Shown: piece after piece, positions 5,948 through 19,863 of the stretch
Numbering within the stretch: the first letter of the stretch is position 1
Layout: the number at the start of each line of letters is the position of its first letter
Source of the DNA: an uncultured Anaerolineaceae bacterium
Lineage (GTDB): Bacteria > Chloroflexota > Anaerolineae > Promineifilales > Promineifilaceae
Direction of reading: 5' to 3'
Length of the DNA stretch: 20,734 bases
NCBI GenBank assembly: GCA_937967805.1
Contig: CALBTC010000477.1
Span: 1-20,734, forward strand
Position numbers and translations under genes: made by a program
Notes under the pieces: generated by a model
Told to the model about the DNA's origin: nothing
Seen by the model: the letters and a program-made list of their open reading frames with translations, nothing else
Database searches by the model: none

Positions 5948-5986
5948 ACCCTTCGCTTGATTGCTCCGCCATCCTACGCGAAGGGT
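5948..5986 (+). promoter_or_regulatory. leader hairpin covering the ribosome binding site
   Basis: ACCCTTCGC (5948-5956) pairs perfectly with GCGAAGGGT (5978-5986), followed by TTTTATT and then ATG 5993. The 3' arm contains AAGGG (5981-5985), the only Shine-Dalgarno-like sequence for ATG 5993 and correctly spaced 7 nt away. The hairpin would therefore hide the ribosome binding site, and it also resembles an intrinsic terminator. It may be an attenuator, a translational switch, or just a terminator for upstream transcription. Confidence 0.45.
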
Positions 5987-5992
5987 TTTATT

Positions 5993-7321
5993 ATGAGAAA
6001 TAGTATGCGTAGATCGTTTGTCCTTATTTTTATCATTGCCTTTCTCACGTTGGCGGCCTGCCAGAGCAATACAACGATAGAACCGCTTGTCCCTCCAGCC
6101 GCTACCCTTGCACCACCTGTGATTAACACGGCCGTACCTGCCACCAACACCCCGCCACCCCCACCGGTCATCAGCGAAGAAACTGCACCAACCTCACCAG
6201 CCGCAACCGACGCTCCGCCCACTGAAATTCCATCACCCCCAACCAACACGCCCATCCCCGAAAACCCAGTCAGCAGTATCAGTCTGGAGCCGGTTGTCAG
6301 CGGGCTGATTCAGCCGCTGTACGTCACCCACGCATTTGATGACCGGCTGTTTATCCTGGAACAGGCGGGCACCATTCGCATTTTTCAAAACGGCGCGCTG
6401 CTTTCCACCCCCTTCCTGGACATTCAGGACCCGGTCGGCTCCAACAGCAACGAACAGGGATTGCTGGGGCTAGCTTTTCATCCCAATTATCAGGAAAACG
6501 GCACCTTCTTCCTAAACTACACCGATGTGAACGGCAACACCAACATCGCCCGTTACCGCGTCAGCAGCGATCCCAACGTGGCTGACCCCGCCAGTGAGCA
6601 AATTTTGCTTACCATTCCGCAGCCTTTTGCCAACCACAACGGCGGCATGATCGGCTTTGGCCCCGATGGCTACCTGTACATCGGCGTAGGCGACGGCGGC
6701 AGCCAGGGCGACCCGCAGGGCAACGGGCAAAATCCGGGCACGCTGCTGGGCAGCATTTTGCGGCTGGACGTAGACAGCGCCGACGGCAGCTACACCATCC
6801 CCGCCGACAATCCGTTTGTGGACGACCCCACCGCCCGGCCAGAGGTATGGGCTTACGGTCTGCGCAATCCGTGGCGCTTTAGCTTCGACCGGCTGACCAA
6901 TGATTTGTTTGTGGCTGACGTGGGCCAAAACAGTTGGGAAGAAGTGAGCTGGCTGGCCGGCGGCACGCCCGCCGGCCAAAATTTTGGCTGGAACCGCATG
7001 GAAGGCAATCATTGCTACACACCCAACTGCAATCCGGCGGAGTATGTGCCCGCTATTTTTGAATATAACCATACCCAAGGTTGCTCCATCAGCGGAGGAT
7101 ACGTGTACCGGGGGCAGCAGTTTTTGAGTCTGTACGGCAATTATTTCGCGGCCGATTTTTGCAGCGGCACGATCTGGGGCGTGTTTCAGCAGCCGGACGG
7201 CACCTGGCAATCCACCATCGTGCACCAGAGCGGCCTGCCCATTAACAGCTTTGGCGAGGATGTGAACGGGGAGCTGTATGTGGTCGCCCGCACCGGGCAG
7301 ATTTTGCAGATACGGCCGTAA
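5993..7321 (+). CDS. lipoprotein PQQ-dependent sugar dehydrogenase-like beta-propeller
   Basis: A 442-residue product with a lipoprotein signal (basic n-region, hydrophobic 9-20, lipobox L-A-A-C with Cys23). A Pro/Thr-rich tether of about 65 residues follows, then a glucose/sorbosone dehydrogenase (PQQ-type) six-blade propeller. Typical blocks are Q-G-L-L-G-L-A-F-H-P, N-H-N-G-G-M-I-G-F-G-P-D-G-Y-L-Y, G-D-G-G, G-L-R-N-P-W-R-F-S-F-D and G-Q-N-F-G-W. By homology it oxidises aldose sugars outside the cell using PQQ; the substrate is unknown. ATG 5993 was chosen because it gives a clean signal peptide; the TTG 36 bases upstream adds nothing useful. It is a paralogue of the gene at 8628 but is lipid-anchored and lacks that protein's C-terminal Y-L-P-L-V tail. 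The last codons, CGG CCG TAA, lie inside an ACGGCCGT word. Confidence 0.85.
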   Translation: MRNSMRRSFVLIFIIAFLTLAACQSNTTIEPLVPPAATLAPPVINTAVPATNTPPPPPVISEETAPTSPAATDAPPTEIPSPPTNTPIPENPVSSISLEPVVSGLIQPLYVTHAFDDRLFILEQAGTIRIFQNGALLSTPFLDIQDPVGSNSNEQGLLGLAFHPNYQENGTFFLNYTDVNGNTNIARYRVSSDPNVADPASEQILLTIPQPFANHNGGMIGFGPDGYLYIGVGDGGSQGDPQGNGQNPGTLLGSILRLDVDSADGSYTIPADNPFVDDPTARPEVWAYGLRNPWRFSFDRLTNDLFVADVGQNSWEEVSWLAGGTPAGQNFGWNRMEGNHCYTPNCNPAEYVPAIFEYNHTQGCSISGGYVYRGQQFLSLYGNYFAADFCSGTIWGVFQQPDGTWQSTIVHQSGLPINSFGEDVNGELYVVARTGQILQIRP

Positions 7322-8627: not shown

Positions 8628-10013
8628 ATGAAGAAGCGTTGGATTTTGTTAGCAGGATTGTTTGTTTTGGTGACGGGGTTTTTGGGGCAAACGGCCGTTT
8701 CCGCCCAGCCAACCACCGCACCCGCCGCACCAGACGGCAGCGTCAGCCTGAGCGCCGCACTGGTAGAAAGCGGCTTCACCCAGCCGGTAGACATTGCCAA
8801 TGCCGGGGACGATCGCCTGTTCATCGTGGAGCAGCCGGGTGTTATTCGCATTATTGATGCCAACGGCAGCAAGCTGGATGAGCCATTTTTGGATATCAAC
8901 GGCATTGTCGACAGCGAAACTCATTCTGAGCGCGGTTTGTTGGGGCTGGCGTTTCATCCAGATTATCCCAACACGCCTTATTTTTACGTGAACTATACGG
9001 CCGTTTCCGGCAGCGGCGACACCATCATTGCCCGCTATACCGTCAGCAGCGATCCCAACGTAGCCGACCCGAACAGCGCCGTTGAAATTCTGCGCATCGA
9101 CCAGCCTAACGCCAACCACAACGCCGGCGACCTCAACTTTGGCCCGCAAGACGGCTACCTCTACATCGCCATGGGCGACGGCGGTGGTGCTAACGATGAG
9201 GGCACCGGGCACAATCCTGAAATCGGCAATGCCCAGGATATGGCCCAACTGCTGGGCAAAGTGCTGCGCATTAACGTCGATGGTGACAGCGGCCTGGCTC
9301 CTGACTGCGGCACCGTGAACAGCGGCACACCCCCCTACACTATCCCCACCGATAATCCATTCACCGCCGGCGGCGATGGCATCTGCAACGAAATTTGGGC
9401 TTCCGGATTGCGCAACCCGTGGCGCGTGAGCTTTGACCGGCAGACGTTTGATTACTACATTGCCGATGTGGGCCAAAGTGCCTGGGAAGAGGTCAACTTC
9501 CAGCCCGCCAGCAGCACCGGCGGCGAAAATTATGGCTGGCGCTGCTACGAAGGTAACAATCCTGCCAAAAACTTTGATGCTGGATTGTGTACCGACACCT
9601 ACGTTTTCCCTTTTGACGAATATCCACGTAACAATCAAGACGATGATTACGATGAGGGTCAGGCAATTACTGGTGGTTACGTGTACCGGGGCAATGACTA
9701 TCCGTCATTGAACGGCATCTATATTTACGCCGATTTTATTAGCAACAACTTTTGGCTGGCGCAAAACAACGGCGGCTGGAACATTACGCCGCTGGGCAAC
9801 ATTACCATCAATGGTAGCAGCAGCACTGTCAGCAACCCCAGCACGTTTGGCGAGGGCTGCGATGGCGAACTGTACGTCGCCAGCCACAGCGGCACCATCT
9901 ACCAGATTCAATCCGGCAGCGGTGCCAAGGTTGAAGGGGCTGCGCTGGACCAGTTTGTCTATTTACCGTTGGTGTTTGGTGGCAACGGTACTGGGTTAAT
10001 CTGCTCAGGCTAA
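8628..10013 (+). CDS. secreted PQQ-dependent sugar dehydrogenase-like beta-propeller
   Basis: A 461-residue paralogue of the 5993 gene. A cleavable signal peptide (residues 1-26, ending A-V-S-A before Gln27) replaces the lipobox, and there is almost no tether. The PQQ-type propeller blocks recur in order: R-G-L-L-G-L-A-F-H-P, N-H-N-A-G-D-L-N-F-G-P, M-G-D-G-G-G, G-L-R-N-P-W-R-V-S-F-D, G-E-N-Y-G-W-R-C-Y-E-G-N and a final S-H-S-G-T-I-Y-Q-I. It is expected to oxidise sugars extracellularly. The C-terminus is an added tail, D-Q-F-V-Y-L-P-L-V (441-449), then a Gly-rich stretch and Cys459. A strong GAGGAG (8615-8620) precedes ATG 8628. It runs tail to tail with the HNH module, 11 bp from its end. 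Confidence 0.88.
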   Translation: MKKRWILLAGLFVLVTGFLGQTAVSAQPTTAPAAPDGSVSLSAALVESGFTQPVDIANAGDDRLFIVEQPGVIRIIDANGSKLDEPFLDINGIVDSETHSERGLLGLAFHPDYPNTPYFYVNYTAVSGSGDTIIARYTVSSDPNVADPNSAVEILRIDQPNANHNAGDLNFGPQDGYLYIAMGDGGGANDEGTGHNPEIGNAQDMAQLLGKVLRINVDGDSGLAPDCGTVNSGTPPYTIPTDNPFTAGGDGICNEIWASGLRNPWRVSFDRQTFDYYIADVGQSAWEEVNFQPASSTGGENYGWRCYEGNNPAKNFDAGLCTDTYVFPFDEYPRNNQDDDYDEGQAITGGYVYRGNDYPSLNGIYIYADFISNNFWLAQNNGGWNITPLGNITINGSSSTVSNPSTFGEGCDGELYVASHSGTIYQIQSGSGAKVEGAALDQFVYLPLVFGGNGTGLICSG

Positions 10014-10842: not shown

Positions 10843-12027
10843 CTACGGCCGTTCCACCAAAGGCAGATAAAATTTCTCGGTCAATTCAAAAGGGGTAAAC
10901 AGAGGGCCGGTGAAGCAGGGATATGTTTCCGGGTCCGGTTCGCCGCTGACCGTCCAGCAGAAACGGCCGTCGCCATCCTCTGCTTCCGGTAACCGGTCCG
11001 TAACGGACTGGGCCACATACCACAACACCAGGTTGGCGCTGCCGATTGGCTCGCCATCGACAAAATTTTCTGGCCCCTGCCTGTGATCATCATAGCAGCA
11101 GTAATCGATGCTCCAACTGGGTAAATCGGTATCCCCTTCCGTCGGTTTATGCAGCGTGACGTAAATGAAGGGATCGTCTGCCTTGCCATCGTCGTTGAAC
11201 TGGCCTAGCCCTGGCTCAACCGTATAGCCCTGGCCGCTTCCGTCTAGCACGAGCCAGCCCTGGTTGGCGCTGTTAAGCTGGTGCGGGCCAAAATTTGAGG
11301 CGTAAGGCGTGCGATACAGTTCTGACTGCTGGAACGCCCACTGCTGGCCATCCCAAAAAGCGAAGCTGTCGTTATTGTCGCCATTAACAGCAATATCTAT
11401 GCGCACAACAGGGCGGTAAACCGGCTGCTGCATGGCGGGGTCTGTGCCGCAGCCTTTGCCATAGGCGCCGGCCACAATGCGAAAACGGCCGTCCACAAAA
11501 AACTGGTAATGCTGCTCATACCGGTAATTACACTCATTGCCCCACTGCGACATGCGAAAATCCTGCACTACCTCAAAACCAACCACCGTGCTGCCGTCCT
11601 GCAAATCACGCACCTGGGTTTCTTCGTAAGGCAAAATGAGAAAACCGCCACCACTACCGCCACAGCCGATTACATCTCTAAATCCGGGAGAGATAGCATA
11701 CTCGCCATTGTAATCCACATGCCATTCGGGCAGCGAAGCGCTGGTGAGAACGGCGCGCCCCTGGTAAGTAACGTTAAAAATGCGCAGGCCATCGTTGCCG
11801 CTGGTTTCATAGTTGAACGCCCAGCCATCCCGGTTCACGCTACCCGGCGCAGGACAGCCACCCTCCGGCTCATTGGGAATTAAACTGGCAATGCCAATTT
11901 CTGCACTTGCCCCGATCACTTCTTTCCCCACCAACAACGCAAGCAACGCTATCCCCAGAACAATTCCCAGCCCCACAAAACCTCTCTCCAATCTCTTTTT
12001 CCTCTGTGTCCTCTGTGGCTCACCCAA
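10843..12027 (-). CDS. exported copper-amine-oxidase-like protein without copper ligands
   Basis: A 394-residue exported protein. The basic n-region (K-K-R-L-E-R) and hydrophobic 17-33 form a signal peptide or anchor. The body aligns by eye with the catalytic domain of copper amine oxidases: G-L-R-I-F-N-V-T-Y-Q-G-R then S-L-P-E-W-H-V-D-Y (80-106), N-Y-R-Y (167-170, at the TPQ tyrosine N-Y-D/E-Y), D-G-R-F-R, then V-R-I-D-I-A-V-N-G-D-N-N, and near the end L-V-L-W-Y-V. The H-x-H copper pair is Tyr204-Arg-Pro206, and the third His position appears to be Asp344, so redox activity is unlikely. The tail is K-F-Y-L-P-L-V-E-R-P. The TTG start at 12027 overlaps the Rieske stop; GTG at 11976 after GAGAGG is an alternative that would leave the repeat-derived residues outside the protein. 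Confidence 0.65.
   Translation of the reverse strand: MGEPQRTQRKKRLERGFVGLGIVLGIALLALLVGKEVIGASAEIGIASLIPNEPEGGCPAPGSVNRDGWAFNYETSGNDGLRIFNVTYQGRAVLTSASLPEWHVDYNGEYAISPGFRDVIGCGGSGGGFLILPYEETQVRDLQDGSTVVGFEVVQDFRMSQWGNECNYRYEQHYQFFVDGRFRIVAGAYGKGCGTDPAMQQPVYRPVVRIDIAVNGDNNDSFAFWDGQQWAFQQSELYRTPYASNFGPHQLNSANQGWLVLDGSGQGYTVEPGLGQFNDDGKADDPFIYVTLHKPTEGDTDLPSWSIDYCCYDDHRQGPENFVDGEPIGSANLVLWYVAQSVTDRLPEAEDGDGRFCWTVSGEPDPETYPCFTGPLFTPFELTEKFYLPLVERP
12000..12017. repeat. tandem 9-mer at the start of the amine-oxidase-like gene
   Basis: TCCTCTGTG is repeated exactly twice (12000-12008 and 12009-12017). In the coding direction it reads CACAGAGGA twice and supplies P-Q-R-T-Q-R. This word (CACAGAGGACACAGAGG) is familiar to me as an intergenic repeat in many bacterial genomes, so the first residues of the gene are probably repeat-derived. 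Confidence 0.6.
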
Positions 12028-12367
12028 TTTTCACCTTCACAATGCCCGCTTCCACCTTGACAGGATATTTTTTGAGGCGATAGTTTTCATCTTCAGGCCA
12101 GAGAATACGGCCGTTGCGAATGTCCCAGCAATATTCATGATCGGCGCAGGTTACTTTGTAACGGCTCAGCCACCCTTTGGCAAAATCGGTTGAGGCATGG
12201 GGACACTCAGCCGAGAAAGCATACAGCTCGCCTTCCCAGCTGGTGAGGATAATTTTGTGGCCGTTGATGGTAACGGCCGTCATCTGCCCCGCCTGCACCG
12301 CATCAGCAGGTACGGTCGTGAAGTAACCTTCGGCGTCTGGCGTAGCTTTGGAGCGGAATAAATGCAT
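12020..12367 (-). CDS. Rieske-type [2Fe-2S] ferredoxin
   Basis: A 115-residue single-domain Rieske protein that carries electrons through a His/Cys-ligated [2Fe-2S] cluster. Cluster ligands are C-P-H (Cys55, His57) and C-A-D-H (Cys74, His77), with the surrounding H-A-S-T-D-F-A-K-G-W and C-W-D-I-R-N-G patterns typical of oxygenase-type or NirD-like ferredoxins. No signal peptide or membrane helix, so it acts in the cytosol. No reductase or oxygenase partner is in the window. It ends with TGA overlapping the possible TTG start of the next gene by 8 nt and follows the selenoprotein gene by 73 bp, so the three may be co-transcribed. Three ACGGCCGT words lie in or near the gene. Confidence 0.9.
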   Translation of the reverse strand: MHLFRSKATPDAEGYFTTVPADAVQAGQMTAVTINGHKIILTSWEGELYAFSAECPHASTDFAKGWLSRYKVTCADHEYCWDIRNGRILWPEDENYRLKKYPVKVEAGIVKVKIG

Positions 12368-12440: not shown

Positions 12441-13070
12441 TTACTCGATTACATCGGGCTCGGGTTCGGCCATAAGCGTTTCAATGGCGGCCACGGCCTC
12501 CAAATCGGAGCCACGGCTGAATTCGCCGATGTGCTGGTAGCGGATACGGCCGTTCTTGTCAATCAAATAAGTGGTCGGCCAAAAGCGCTGGTTGTAAGCT
12601 CGCCAGGTCAGCCGGTCGTTGTCGATGGCTACCGGATAGGTTATCCCGAAGCGCTCGATGGCATTCTTCACGTTGTCAACCTCGCGCTCGTAAGCAAATT
12701 CTGGATAATGGATACTGATGACGGTAAAGTCGTCACCTTCGTACTGTGCTTGCCATTCCTTGACCCAAGGAATCGTCCGTTGACAATTAATTCAGCCAAA
12801 GGTCCAGAACTCCAGCAGCACCACTTTGCCCCGCTGGTCGGCCAGCGTTACTGGACCGTCGCTGTTGAGCCAGACATCGTTCTGAAATTCGGGCGCTTCG
12901 CCCATGTCAGGTAAATCCACTACGACCTCCGCTAAAGTTGGCGGCGCTTCTGTACTGCTGCTGACAACAACCTCAGCCACGCCGCTGCTGGTTTCTTCGG
13001 CAGCAGGCGTTGTACAGGCGGCTGCTGCAAGAATGAGTATGAGGGATACGGCCGTCTGTTTTCGTATCAT
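12441..13070 (-). CDS. predicted selenoprotein: thioredoxin/redoxin-fold lipoprotein with UxxC active site
   Basis: One frame of 209 codons, interrupted only by TGA at 12794-12792. Read as selenocysteine, the protein has an export signal (hydrophobic 7-18, A-A-A-C with Cys19 as possible lipid site), a low-complexity linker (20-55) and a thioredoxin-like domain (about 58-205). The active site is L-E-F-W-T-F-G-U93-I-N-C96-Q-R-T-I-P-W-V, where homologues have C-I-N-C, and the cis-Pro strand is F-W-P-T-T-Y-L-I-D. The residues after the TGA (V-K-E-W, F-T-V-I-S-I-H-Y-P-E-F) are the normal continuation of TlpA/redoxin proteins. A SECIS-like hairpin follows the TGA. ATG 13070 has a strong GGAGGT 6 nt upstream. 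It should reduce or isomerise disulfides, or reduce peroxides, outside the membrane. Alternatives: nonsense mutation or TGY-to-TGA sequencing error. Standard gene callers split it in two. Confidence 0.75.
12750..12794 (-). promoter_or_regulatory. bacterial SECIS-like element with the recoded UGA
   Basis: UGA at 12794-12792. Eighteen nt later ATTCCTTG (12773-12766) pairs perfectly with CAAGGAAT (12762-12755), closing a GGU loop (12765-12763); the loop begins 26 nt after the UGA. A lower stem can form between UUGUC (12786-12782) and GGCAA (12754-12750), with an 8-nt bulge on the 5' side. Known bacterial SECIS elements lie directly behind the UGA, with a small apical loop containing G/GU about 16-37 nt away, so this fits well. 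SelB would bind the loop. Its own sel genes are not in the window. Confidence 0.65.
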
Positions 13071-16716: not shown

Positions 16717-19700
16717 CTATCCTCTCGGATTTTCTTCAACCAATTGGGCAATCACGTCATCAAGTTTGAGGTTTTTTACGGCCGTTTCCACCTCAACCAT
16801 CATCTCATCAGGCAGTTCCGCCTTGAGTTCCTGCAGCAGCTTCTGCGCCTTTTCCAGCGTGGTGGCCTCAATGGCTTCCTGCCGGGCAGCAAAGGTGAGG
16901 AGCTGCGCGGCATGCTGCATACGGCCGTAGCTCATTTCCAACTCCGCCACATCCACCACCGTGGCAATGGCCGACCAGACCACGCCTACCTCCTGCGCCA
17001 GTTGCAGCGACTCGTTAAAATAACGACGCGCTTTTTTCCGTTTGCCCTGCTTGCGGTAAATCGTGCCCAGCACCGACAAGCCACCGACCATGCCCCGCCG
17101 GTGACCGATCTTCTCGTGCGCGGCATACGCTTTTTCAATGTAATCGAGGGCCTCATCAAATTGCTCTAGCTCCGCATACACCATGCCTATGTTGTGGCTG
17201 GTAGCCGCCATGCCCCATTCATGATTGTTTTCCTTAAGAATTGCGTATGCCTGTTTGTATTGCCGCAGCGCTTCGTCGAATTTTTCCTGGCGATTGGCAA
17301 TGATGGCGATGTTGTTATGTAAAATTGCAATGCGCAGCGAATTGTTTAATGATTTGGCTAAGGCCATCGCTTCCGCAAAATAGCCCCTGGCCTCTTCGTA
17401 ATTTCCCACGCCAACCTCCAAATTGCCTAGCGTGTTGAGCAGGACCATTTTCAGGTCGTCGTCACCGGCATCCGTATCATCGCAAAGCTTTAGCGCCTCC
17501 TGTAAATAAGGGCGGGCCTCATCCCACGCACCCCGATCATGCACCACGTCCCCCAAGTGTTTGAGGCAAAAGAGGCGCGTGCGGGTTAGCTTATGCTGCT
17601 GCGCCAGCCCGTTGGCTTCCTTTAGAACAGCCTCCGCTTCGGGAAATTGCCCGGTCTGGTAAAGAAAATAACCCAGCTCTACCTGAATTTTAATGGCGAT
17701 TTGCTTATGAACGGCCGTCTCCGCCCGTTCCTTTACCCGCCGCAAACTTTCCTCAAACAGCGCCACCCCTTCCAAAAAGCGACTGCGATCAGCTAAAAAG
17801 CGGCTGAATCCTGTGACCAGTTTGTTGAGAACGGCCGTATCCATCTCTACCACACCCCACTGCCAGGCGATACGAATATTCTCCCAATCTGCCCCCAATG
17901 CCGCCAACACTTCTGGCGCTTCGCTCCCTTTCAAGGCCGGTTCATGCCCCTGTACAAACTCGGTAAAATAACGCGCCTGAGCCGCCTCGGTCTGGGCTTC
18001 CTCCTGGGGATGGGCCGCCAACTGCTCCTGGGCAAATTGCAGCAGCAGGGGATGGCGGCGGAAGCGTTGGTCTTCATCCAGCCGCAGGAAAGATCGGTCT
18101 ACCAGGGACATCAGCTGGGGCGGCGTGGCATGGGTCACTTGCTGCGCCGCTGCCCGCGTAAACCCACCGCGAAACACAGACATCTGCCGGAACAAGGCTT
18201 GTTCAGCGGCCGAAAGCATTTGCCAGCTTGTCTCGATGACGGCCCGCAGGCTGCGGTGGCGCTCCGGCACGTCGTGTAAGGTCGTGCTGAGGGCATCTAA
18301 TCCGCGCTGAATTTCCGTCACGATCTCAGCCACGGCCAGCACGCGGGTCCAGGTGGCGGCCAGCTCCAGCGCCAGCGGCAGTCCGCCAACAAGTTGACAT
18401 AATTTGGTTACGGCCGTTTCCTCCCCCGCCAGATCAAAATGGGGCCGAACACGCTGCACCCGGTTGGCAAAAAGCTGCACGGCCGGGTAATCGGTGAACG
18501 GTATTCGGTTATCGGTCATTGGTTTACCGCTTACCGGGTACGGGAGACCTTCCAGCTCCAGCAAACGCTCCGCTTGCAGGCGCAGCCGCTCACGGCTGGT
18601 GGCAATGAGGCGCAATTCGGGTGCTTCCTGCGTCAGTTGGCTGAGGAAGTCACGCAGCTTGTCGTTGAGCAGATGCTCCAGGTTATCCAGCACCAGCAAG
18701 GCTTCCAGCGGTTTGAGCTGGTTAAGCAGCTGCGTCGCTACAGCTTCCTGCCCAGACAAGGTAAGGTCCATCGCTTCGGCAACGGCCGTTACAACCCCAT
18801 TTAAATCCTGAAACGCAACCAATGAAACCAACCACACCCCATCAGCAAACGCCCCTACCTGCCCCCGCGCCGCTTCCTGCGCCAGCCGCGTCTTGCCCAT
18901 GCCGCCCGGCCCGGTGATGGTAAGGAGACGGCCGTCCGGCTCCGCCAGCCATTTTTCAATCTGTGTTAATTCGTTTTCACGTCCGATGAAGGTGGTGGTT
19001 GGTGCGGGGAGATTGTGTTTTTGTGACAAGGTGACCGGGTGACCGGGTGACAAGGTGACCTGCTCAGAGAGCTTCACCTTGTCACCTTGCCACCTTGTCA
19101 CCTTGTCATCTCTTATCGCTTCATAAAGCTCAACAGTCTCCTCATCCGGCTCTACGCCCAGCTCGTCGGCGAGAATGGCGGTGCACTGCTCGTACTGGAC
19201 CAGGGCGGCGGGACGCTGGTTGTCCAGCGCATAAAGCAGCATGAGCTGGCGGTGGGCTTCTTCTTGCAGCGGATCGAGCGCCAGCAGCCGCTGGGCGTGC
19301 TGAATGCCGTCGCTGAATTGGCCACGCTGCTGGTGAAAGGTAATTAAAGTGGATAGTGCATCGAGCATCATTTGCCGCAGGCGTTCCTGTTCCAACAGCA
19401 CCCACGCTTCAAACTCGGGCACGCCGCGCAGGTTGAATCCGGCCAGGAAGTCGCCCTTGTAGTGGGAAACGGCCGTTTGCAACTGCGCCGCCACTATCCT
19501 GGTAAGTTTCCCATCTTGCTGCCGCGCCTGGGCCTGATCAATTGCCTGCTCAAACGCGATTACATCCAGCTGGTAATCCGCGTCGGTATTGATGGCAACG
19601 GTATGCCGATCGGCGATCAAATATTTCTCTAGCTGTTTGCGTAAGCTGGAAAGAATGACGCTGAGGTTAGCCAGGGCACGGCTCTGGTCGTTGTCTGGCC

Positions 19701-19863
19701 AGAAGAGGGTGGCAATGGTTTCGCGAGGATGTGGGCGCGGGTTGCAAGCGAGGTAAACCAGCAGGCCATCTGCCTTGCGCGAGGCAAAGCCGGTAACGGC
19801 CGTTCCGTTTTGCGCAATATTCAGCCCCCCCAGCAGTGAAATTGTCAATTCAGGCTGATTCAT
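16717..19863 (-). CDS. AfsR/SARP-like regulator: BTAD, NB-ARC ATPase and TPR domains
   Basis: A 1048-residue transcriptional regulator. Residues 1-95 match an OmpR-type winged helix (L-L-G-G-L-N, R-K-A-D-G-L-L-V-Y-L-A, F-W-P-D-N-D-Q-S-R-A-L-A-N-L). The bacterial transcriptional activation domain covers about 100-250 (Y-K-G-D-F-L-A-G-F, A-L-V-Q-Y-E-Q-C, L-G-V-E-P-D-E-E-T). The STAND/NB-ARC module has Walker A G-P-G-G-M-G-K-T (318-325), Walker B L-L-V-L-D-N (389-394) and G-L-P-L-A-L (494-499). The C-terminal 400 residues are TPR repeats with A-x-x-x-x-x-Y-A spacing. Such proteins sense a signal through TPRs, bind ATP, oligomerise and activate promoters. Two linkers (about 252-282 and 441-460) are encoded by short-word repeats. 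No clear Shine-Dalgarno site; ATG 19863. Confidence 0.9.
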   Translation of the reverse strand: MNQPELTISLLGGLNIAQNGTAVTGFASRKADGLLVYLACNPRPHPRETIATLFWPDNDQSRALANLSVILSSLRKQLEKYLIADRHTVAINTDADYQLDVIAFEQAIDQAQARQQDGKLTRIVAAQLQTAVSHYKGDFLAGFNLRGVPEFEAWVLLEQERLRQMMLDALSTLITFHQQRGQFSDGIQHAQRLLALDPLQEEAHRQLMLLYALDNQRPAALVQYEQCTAILADELGVEPDEETVELYEAIRDDKVTRWQGDKVKLSEQVTLSPGHPVTLSQKHNLPAPTTTFIGRENELTQIEKWLAEPDGRLLTITGPGGMGKTRLAQEAARGQVGAFADGVWLVSLVAFQDLNGVVTAVAEAMDLTLSGQEAVATQLLNQLKPLEALLVLDNLEHLLNDKLRDFLSQLTQEAPELRLIATSRERLRLQAERLLELEGLPYPVSGKPMTDNRIPFTDYPAVQLFANRVQRVRPHFDLAGEETAVTKLCQLVGGLPLALELAATWTRVLAVAEIVTEIQRGLDALSTTLHDVPERHRSLRAVIETSWQMLSAAEQALFRQMSVFRGGFTRAAAQQVTHATPPQLMSLVDRSFLRLDEDQRFRRHPLLLQFAQEQLAAHPQEEAQTEAAQARYFTEFVQGHEPALKGSEAPEVLAALGADWENIRIAWQWGVVEMDTAVLNKLVTGFSRFLADRSRFLEGVALFEESLRRVKERAETAVHKQIAIKIQVELGYFLYQTGQFPEAEAVLKEANGLAQQHKLTRTRLFCLKHLGDVVHDRGAWDEARPYLQEALKLCDDTDAGDDDLKMVLLNTLGNLEVGVGNYEEARGYFAEAMALAKSLNNSLRIAILHNNIAIIANRQEKFDEALRQYKQAYAILKENNHEWGMAATSHNIGMVYAELEQFDEALDYIEKAYAAHEKIGHRRGMVGGLSVLGTIYRKQGKRKKARRYFNESLQLAQEVGVVWSAIATVVDVAELEMSYGRMQHAAQLLTFAARQEAIEATTLEKAQKLLQELKAELPDEMMVEVETAVKNLKLDDVIAQLVEENPRG
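18484..18543. repeat. ACCGATAA-type repeat read in frame in the regulator
   Basis: In the coding direction ACCGATAACCGAATACCG, TTCACCGATTACCC and GGTAAGCGGTAAACC form a short-word repeat like that at 13101-13144. It encodes about residues 441-460 (P-Y-P-V-S-G-K-P-M-T-D-N-R-I-P-F-T-D-Y-P), a loop inside the NB-ARC module. Confidence 0.55.
19025..19108. repeat. GGTGACAA/CACCTTGT inverted short-word repeat inside the regulator
   Basis: The left arm 19025-19060 consists of GGTGACC and GGTGACA words. The right arm 19075-19108 is CACCTTGT repeats, the inverse word. Loop is about 14 nt. In the coding direction it yields D-K-V-T-R-W-Q-G-D-K-V-K and V-T-L-S-P-G-H-P-V-T-L-S (about residues 252-280), the linker between the BTAD and NB-ARC domains. 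The arms are imperfect, and their length is a multiple of three, keeping the frame open. Confidence 0.75.

Follow-up and report, generated by a model that had tools for sequence, protein, structure and literature searches.

The question raised by this locus is whether a redoxin gene that carries a TGA codon in its active site is one gene or two, and whether that codon is a stop, an error or a signal for selenocysteine (Sec). In the window (the whole stretch of 20,734 nt analysed), the earlier note had pointed to a minus-strand frame running from 13070 to 12441 and interrupted solely by a TGA at 12794-12792. This is confirmed here: with TGA translated as U, the frame (12441..13070) yields a 209-residue protein that ends at a TAA and begins with an ATG preceded, 7 nt ahead, by GGAGG. 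The TGA (12792..12794, minus strand) falls, as claimed, at the first catalytic position of F-W-T-F-G-U-I-N-C-Q-R, and 116 residues follow U93. Pfam assigned the protein to Redoxin (E 5.9e-16) and AhpC-TSA (E 1.8e-15), and also to Thioredoxin_8. Its N-terminus is a hydrophobic leader (13014..13070, minus strand; MIRKQTAVSLILILAAAAC) with a lipobox-like AAAAC at its end, and Cys-19, the presumed lipidation site, was nearly invariant in an alignment of 35 proteins, so that the product, a DipZ/TlpA-like redoxin, is probably a lipoprotein. The same alignment showed invariant residues on either side of site 93, among them Cys-96 (12783..12785, minus strand), the presumed resolving cysteine of U-I-N-C, and W164-P165, in which Pro-165 (W-P-T; 12576..12578, minus strand) is a candidate cis-proline of the thioredoxin fold according to an AlphaFold2 model.

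The forecast that automatic annotation would report two short hypothetical genes was roughly right, since 114-aa fragments beginning just past the UGA do exist in the protein database (P0104 and P0110, 88% and 85% identical), but these are named "redoxin family protein". Such entries are what would be expected if translation truly terminated at the UGA and a 114-residue redoxin were started separately, perhaps as a selenium-controlled switch. That downstream product, however, would have to start at an ATT codon within the active site and would be devoid of the preceding strand, the leader and the nucleophile, and the invariant residues flank the site on both sides. We thus rejected two separate genes and consider this arrangement very improbable, while noting that genes with a UGA for Sec normally yield some termination product, which can coexist with Sec decoding.

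By sequence, the closest solved structures were the C-terminal domain of DipZ (E 1e-35), SOQ1 (plant SUPPRESSOR OF QUENCHING 1; E 5.5e-26) and NHLRC2 (human NHL repeat-containing 2; E 5e-21). The AlphaFold2 model, built from 35 sequences (mean pLDDT 88), places residue 93 immediately ahead of the first long helix, and Foldseek ranked DipZ at positions 1-6 (36-38% identity), NHLRC2 at position 7, then the bacterial SPOA0173, and SOQ1 at position 11. On the basis of its predicted thioredoxin fold, its U-I-N-C in the place of C-I-N-C and its best similarities, the protein belongs to the DipZ/NHLRC2/SOQ1 thioredoxin-like group. The C-I-N-C active site of Mycobacterium tuberculosis DipZ (PDB 2hyx, 5cyy) aligns with U-I-N-C, but the first position is Cys in DipZ and UGA in the window protein, which is short, free-standing and probably a lipoprotein, whereas DipZ additionally carries membrane and carbohydrate-binding-like domains. 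NHLRC2 and SOQ1 share the thioredoxin-like group with the window protein, which nevertheless is not NHLRC2 proper, since it stops after the thioredoxin fold and has no NHL propeller, and the NHLRC2 motif, in the accessible part of its structure paper, is the all-cysteine CCINC (PMC6107167). ResA, TlpA and DsbE likewise have a CxxC thioredoxin fold and appeared among the Foldseek matches, but their kinship was weaker than that of DipZ by both sequence and fold, and the ResA model NF002854 of NCBIfam scored 73.2 bits (E 2.3e-20) against a cut-off of 170. By analogy with thioredoxin-like enzymes, the U93 selenolate would be expected to attack and C96 to resolve. Some homologues were longer (P0009, P0015, P0016, P0018, P0021 and P0022; 324-353 residues), and in P0009, P0016 and P0018 the CINC/CYNC domain was present in two tandem copies.

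Synteny sets the window beside two MAGs, G001 and G011, labelled Anaerolineaceae and Anaerolineae. A gene for a Rieske [2Fe-2S] ferredoxin-like protein (12020..12367, minus strand; Pfam Rieske E 3.1e-12) lies 73 nt downstream of the redoxin gene and is a possible operon partner; a homologue was found in the fetched flanks of 8 of the 16 relative loci compared, at most 300 nt downstream in 7. Although the two proteins may be linked, inspection by eye disclosed no evident signal sequence in the Rieske protein, and direct electron transfer is therefore not assumed. In protein sequence, this neighbour was 97.4% identical to its counterpart in G001 and 90.4% to that in G011, and the GAF-cyclase neighbour 96.8% and 95.4%, respectively; the redoxin itself was nearer to that of G011 (92% over 159 columns). 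Elsewhere in the window, two related secreted proteins resembling PQQ-type glucose/sorbosone dehydrogenases (named by eye; 5957-7321 and 8628-10013, plus strand) flank an esterase-like gene, and relatives of both were present at the G001 and G011 loci. Fourteen other in-frame TGA candidates of the window were judged by position alone: 13 fell within listed genes, for the most part in another frame or on the opposite strand, with one corresponding to the stop of gene 911-1861, and the remaining one was upstream of gene 16717-19863. A plasmid search returned 916 records with weak matches, none spanning 80% of the query and all below 60% identity.

We then considered the codon at site 93 among relatives. 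The search of 52 genomes of the Chloroflexota family of G011 yielded 21 orthologues, 22 with the window; at the order level 21 of 56 genomes had a match at E 1e-40 or better, and in a class-wide draw 94 of 396 had one at E 1e-30 or better. The frame was open across the site in all 22 orthologues, with TGA in 13 and TGC or TGT in 9. In the 81 sequences aligned in total, the codon was TGA in 56 and Cys in 25 (TGC 13, TGT 12) and nothing else, a ratio that is not a frequency because the set was partly picked for TGA. The earlier note had named nonsense mutations elsewhere in the gene as a sign against its reading, and the result went the other way: in all 56 TGA forms the site was the sole stop of the aligned stretch, and one stop each somewhere in the alignment was found in only two of the 25 Cys rows (L159 and L169). 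The TGA was recovered in many separate assemblies and so does not stem from a sequencing-read error. The gene thus shows an in-frame UGA where homologues have Cys, with conserved sequence on both sides.

The proposed SECIS-like element was also found as described, as a perfect 8-bp stem closing a GGU loop, AUUCCUUG-GGU-CAAGGAAU (12755..12773, minus strand; loop at 12765-12763), that starts 18 nt after the UGA and has its loop beginning 27 nt past it. A further 5-bp lower stem suggested at the same time did not hold up, as it formed partly in the fold of the window but, across 40 relatives, its 65.5% of paired cells did not exceed what shuffles gave. To judge the hairpin against the protein code, synonymous codons were redrawn and hairpins of at least 7 pairs with a G within the first two loop positions were counted. 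For the window alone such a hairpin arose in 4.8% of redraws, only mildly beyond chance. It was present, however, in 13 of 13 TGA orthologues (redrawn mean 0.9, maximum 6, 2000 sets) and in 53 of the 56 TGA forms when the set was widened (redrawn mean 2.2, maximum 8, 500 sets), versus two of the 25 Cys forms (L058, and L165 by another hairpin; redrawn 0.83). At the standard spacing and register, 49 of the 56 TGA forms, counting the window, had a stem of at least 6 pairs with a GGU or GUU loop; a stem of this kind was present in 2 of 25 Cys forms. The latter are L058 (TGT), which keeps the full GGU hairpin, and L114 (TGC), with a CUU loop; both look like SECIS relics. Folding energy was a weak discriminator (z = -0.88 for a 50-nt stretch and -2.90 for the 19-nt hairpin), and an Rfam search with the window and with the 141-base site gave no match to a SECIS family.

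Seven of the 56 TGA forms depart from the standard register. Four of them (L127, L135, L160 and L161) display a shifted hairpin, in the stretch UCCCUAGUUUGAGGGA, and L162 and L163 weaker ones. In the seventh, L065 (genome G018), the usual hairpin is gone and a different perfect 8-bp hairpin with a GUUC loop stands at 19 nt, its loop 8 nt nearer the UGA, which is possibly a relocated SECIS.

In the 40 distinct sequences in the standard register, pairing extended to 98.1% of cells (89.8 on average in shuffles), 20 cells were double changes (shuffled 3.4) and the covariation score was 0.216 (shuffled 0.068). None of 500 shuffles reached any of these values, but shuffles leave in place the shared ancestry that inflates such counts. 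Slid registers were only 45-62% paired. Not every measure stood out: four of the 8 pairs changed on both sides, matched by 21 of 500 shuffles and so not exceptional, and the further pair types were ordinary (395 of 500 shuffles as high). The paired changes go across the protein code: Pro CCC occurred together with Arg AGG or CGG and CCU with Lys AAG or Gln CAG, Trp UGG with Val GUC (9/9) and Ser UCG with GUG or UUG (37/37). Codon choice inside the hairpin was skewed as well. In the TGA forms, Arg was AGG in 43 of 48 cases, as compared with 18 of 428 in the rest of the same genes; Leu was TTG in 38 of 41 (135 of 752 elsewhere) and Glu was GAA in 47 of 47 (333 of 682 elsewhere), versus 1 of 8, 4 of 18 and 6 of 11, respectively, in the Cys forms. 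As judged from these comparisons, a hairpin with a G in its small apical loop lies downstream of the UGA, behaves as a bacterial SECIS under selection and is nearly confined to UGA forms; this selection at the RNA level is the strongest single argument for the selenoprotein reading.

Sec decoding also calls for a dedicated machinery, and this was sought in the relatives. Among the 52 family genomes, 42 were over the cut-off for tRNA-Sec, 44 for SelB, 42 for SelA and 48 for SelD; for the 12 with a TGA form the numbers were 10, 10, 10 and 12. Of 14 well-known genomes used as controls, E. coli alone was over the cut-off for SelA, two were so for SelB and two for SelD, but five were so for tRNA-Sec, Caulobacter, Thermus and Thermotoga among them, which means that the cut-off of the tRNA-Sec model is loose. 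In every genome counted, nonetheless, the best tRNA-Sec match reached at least 59.5 bits against a cut-off of 47, and in the first 12 genomes ARAGORN identified the best match as a tRNA-Sec with anticodon UCA in all 9 that were over the cut-off, and as Ser or Leu tRNAs in the other three. Within the family, 10 of the 12 TGA-form genomes had a tRNA-Sec, as did 7 of the 9 Cys-form genomes; in a second set, the counts were 39 of 43 for genomes of the TGA redoxin, 14 of 16 for those of the Cys form and 16 of 18 for those whose TGA form was drawn in the phylum scan described below. Most Cys forms thus reside beside a Sec system, so the swap is not accounted for by a lost machinery. The tRNA-Sec was not found in 6 of 55 TGA-form genomes (G007 and G021, plus G195, G276, G158 and G323, for which the filters used lose weak matches), and G007 also had neither SelA nor a full SelB; these genomes look like drafts, so that the absence is weak evidence. 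Wherever SelD was found, in 48 genomes, its own gene had one in-frame TGA (48 of 48), and in the 12 loci read (L102-L113) the predicted Sec always lay in [CS]AGUA[SA]K. Eight of these 12 SelD genes showed hairpins of at least 6 pairs, with the loop at 17, 18 or 21 nt, varying among genomes.

These data bear on the idea that the UGA is read as Cys or Trp through a variant code, a suppressor tRNA or plain readthrough. Inserted Cys would be functional, as the Cys forms illustrate, but TGA is an ordinary stop that ends 7 of the 17 window genes listed, which indicates that UGA has not been wholesale reassigned, and the tRNAs with a UCA anticodon were tRNA-Sec at 9 of 9 loci read. Moreover, a covarying hairpin with a loop G is needed by SelB and not by plain readthrough, and SelD of the same genomes has the same arrangement. 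A variant code was therefore rejected, and we regard any such Cys or Trp reading as highly unlikely. The SelB-dependent recoding put forward in the earlier note is instead supported by the TGA/Cys pattern at the site together with the covarying, codon-forcing hairpin of the TGA forms.

The history of the site was examined in two trees. With the site masked, a tree of the 22 orthologues plus 8 outgroup rows required 6 Sec/Cys changes (5-7 in bootstraps), and a quick, poorly resolved tree of 106 rows 18, of which at least 6 were forced. Sec and Cys have thus, on these phylogenies, been swapped repeatedly in this kind of protein. Change counts by themselves give no direction, but the homologous hairpin in most TGA forms and the relics in two Cys forms favour an early gain followed by many losses. 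The window (TGA) paired with G001 (TGC) with moderate support (87/81) in the orthologue tree, a fork that the wide tree did not resolve; in the 19-nt hairpin, the window was identical to G011 at 19 of 19 bases and to G001 at 13 of 19. That TGA is one base away from TGC or TGT, and that G001, the nearest relative by flanking genes, has TGC, is what a Cys gene turned into a pseudogene by a nonsense mutation, or a sequencing error, would give, but this is scarcely credible and was rejected, as the recurrence of the same codon in many assemblies, the intact and conserved downstream frame and the retention of the hairpin almost solely where TGA occurs in effect refute it.

The Sec reading of UGA-93 is then, with high confidence, the best explanation: a single protein, rather than two, would be made from the gene, with a SelB-dependent ribosome reading UGA-93 as selenocysteine under the direction of the hairpin 18 nt downstream. 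The product would be exported and anchored to the membrane as a lipoprotein, and outside the membrane it would act on its substrate as a DipZ/TlpA-type thiol-disulfide oxidoreductase in which the U93 selenolate is the nucleophile and C96 the resolving thiol. The comparison of sequences establishes UGA/Cys exchange at a fixed site, selection on the hairpin that is nearly restricted to the UGA form and, in the majority of relatives, a Sec machinery; that the organism of the window decodes the UGA likewise is what we infer. On this evidence, there is strong support for a real and conserved selenoprotein gene.

The UGA form extends beyond these orthologues. When 400 genomes drawn from the phylum were scanned with the pattern F-W-T-[FY]-G-U-I-N-C, two mismatches allowed, 93 matched, as compared with 3 hits for the reversed pattern. 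The 106 matches listed comprised 67 with TGA and 39 with TGC or TGT, with no other codon; 67 of the 400 genomes had a TGA match, and in 12 genomes TGA and Cys matches occurred together. In G480, for example, an NHL-repeat Sec form (L187, WTFC-U-INC) and a Cys form (L188, WTFG-C-INC) lie about 35 kb apart on one contig. W-T-[FY]-C-U-I-N-C was the form in 51 of the 67 TGA matches listed. Of 20 loci read, 18 had TGA in the searched motif and one (L188) had Cys; in L198 the motif was missed, but a stop aligned at the site. Fourteen of the 18 TGA loci run on for at least 357 residues past the UGA, and L197 ends at the contig end. Pfam found NHL repeats in both L187 and L193, consistent with an NHL propeller there, and L193 (Chloroflexota, WTFC-U-INC) matched SOQ1 (E 3.4e-114) and human NHLRC2 (E 6.2e-111) nearly end to end. 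The solo forms L190-L192 and L204 displayed only a weak hairpin, as did L203 and L206.

A second redoxin family (L184, L185 and L186, in G031, G027 and G026) had an in-frame TGA in W-[TGA]-P-x-C, at the position of the thioredoxin CxxC, and is likely another UxxC selenoprotein by its sequence. In L183, one of four weak TGA paralogues, the TGA was near the C-terminus, away from the active site.

Thioredoxin-fold UxxC selenoproteins are a known kind, as entries in earlier surveys indicate. The accessible part of a 2026 review has a table of predicted prokaryotic selenoprotein families in which a "Redoxin family protein" (PF08534, UxxC) is traced to two papers, the Global Ocean Sampling one of 2008 and that of Peng from 2016 (PMC13188914), and the parts seen of the 2008 marine survey include a "Prx-like 3, pfam08534, UxxC" (PMC2398784); in the 2016 survey (PMC5029168), the one passage found deals with something other than the redoxin UxxC family. 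The listed family (example HEU0032618.1) has the Pfam family and the U-x-x-C in common with the window protein, as compared by description only, and may overlap with it. The strings "Chlorofle" and "NHL" do not occur in the text available of PMC13188914, nor do "redoxin" and "Chlorofle" in that of PMC12013277. As far as the available passages go, selenocysteine of Chloroflexi is already known in formate dehydrogenase (PMC4959059, PMC5736913), and the NHLRC2 structure paper counts chloroflexi among the holders of homologues, with the motif CC(I/V)NC, its "seleno" passages referring to selenomethionine (PMC6107167). Within the openly licensed literature, we found no report of a Sec form of DipZ or NHLRC2.

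What deserves following up is the phylum-wide group, with its NHLRC2-type members and its repeated exchange of Sec and Cys. We consider it somewhat more probable than its opposite that a large, unnamed group of Chloroflexota selenoproteins exists, made up of DipZ-type lipoproteins and NHLRC2/SOQ1-type NHL-repeat proteins, in which the first catalytic Cys is Sec, Sec and Cys have been exchanged many times, the first Cys of C-I-N-C is the redox nucleophile group-wide and the hairpin also dictates protein sequence. Annotation that halts at the UGA leaves such proteins absent from databases or truncated, as in the 114-residue entries. In this family, Sec/Cys swaps form a closely spaced natural series that includes close relatives, and, since most genomes of either form have tRNA-Sec, tests of why selenocysteine is kept can be made without having a lost machinery as the chief confounder. 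If the group reading is true, the hairpin would constrain the protein, with changes in Trp/Ser, Val and Lys/Arg moving together so that base pairs are kept. The swaps would also point to the catalytic residue of NHLRC2-type proteins. NHLRC2 is a disease gene whose activity is, to our knowledge, unsettled; by marking the first Cys of C-I-N-C as the nucleophile, the exchange of Sec and Cys would predict, through the motif alignment, that Cys-90 of human NHLRC2 is the attacking thiol.
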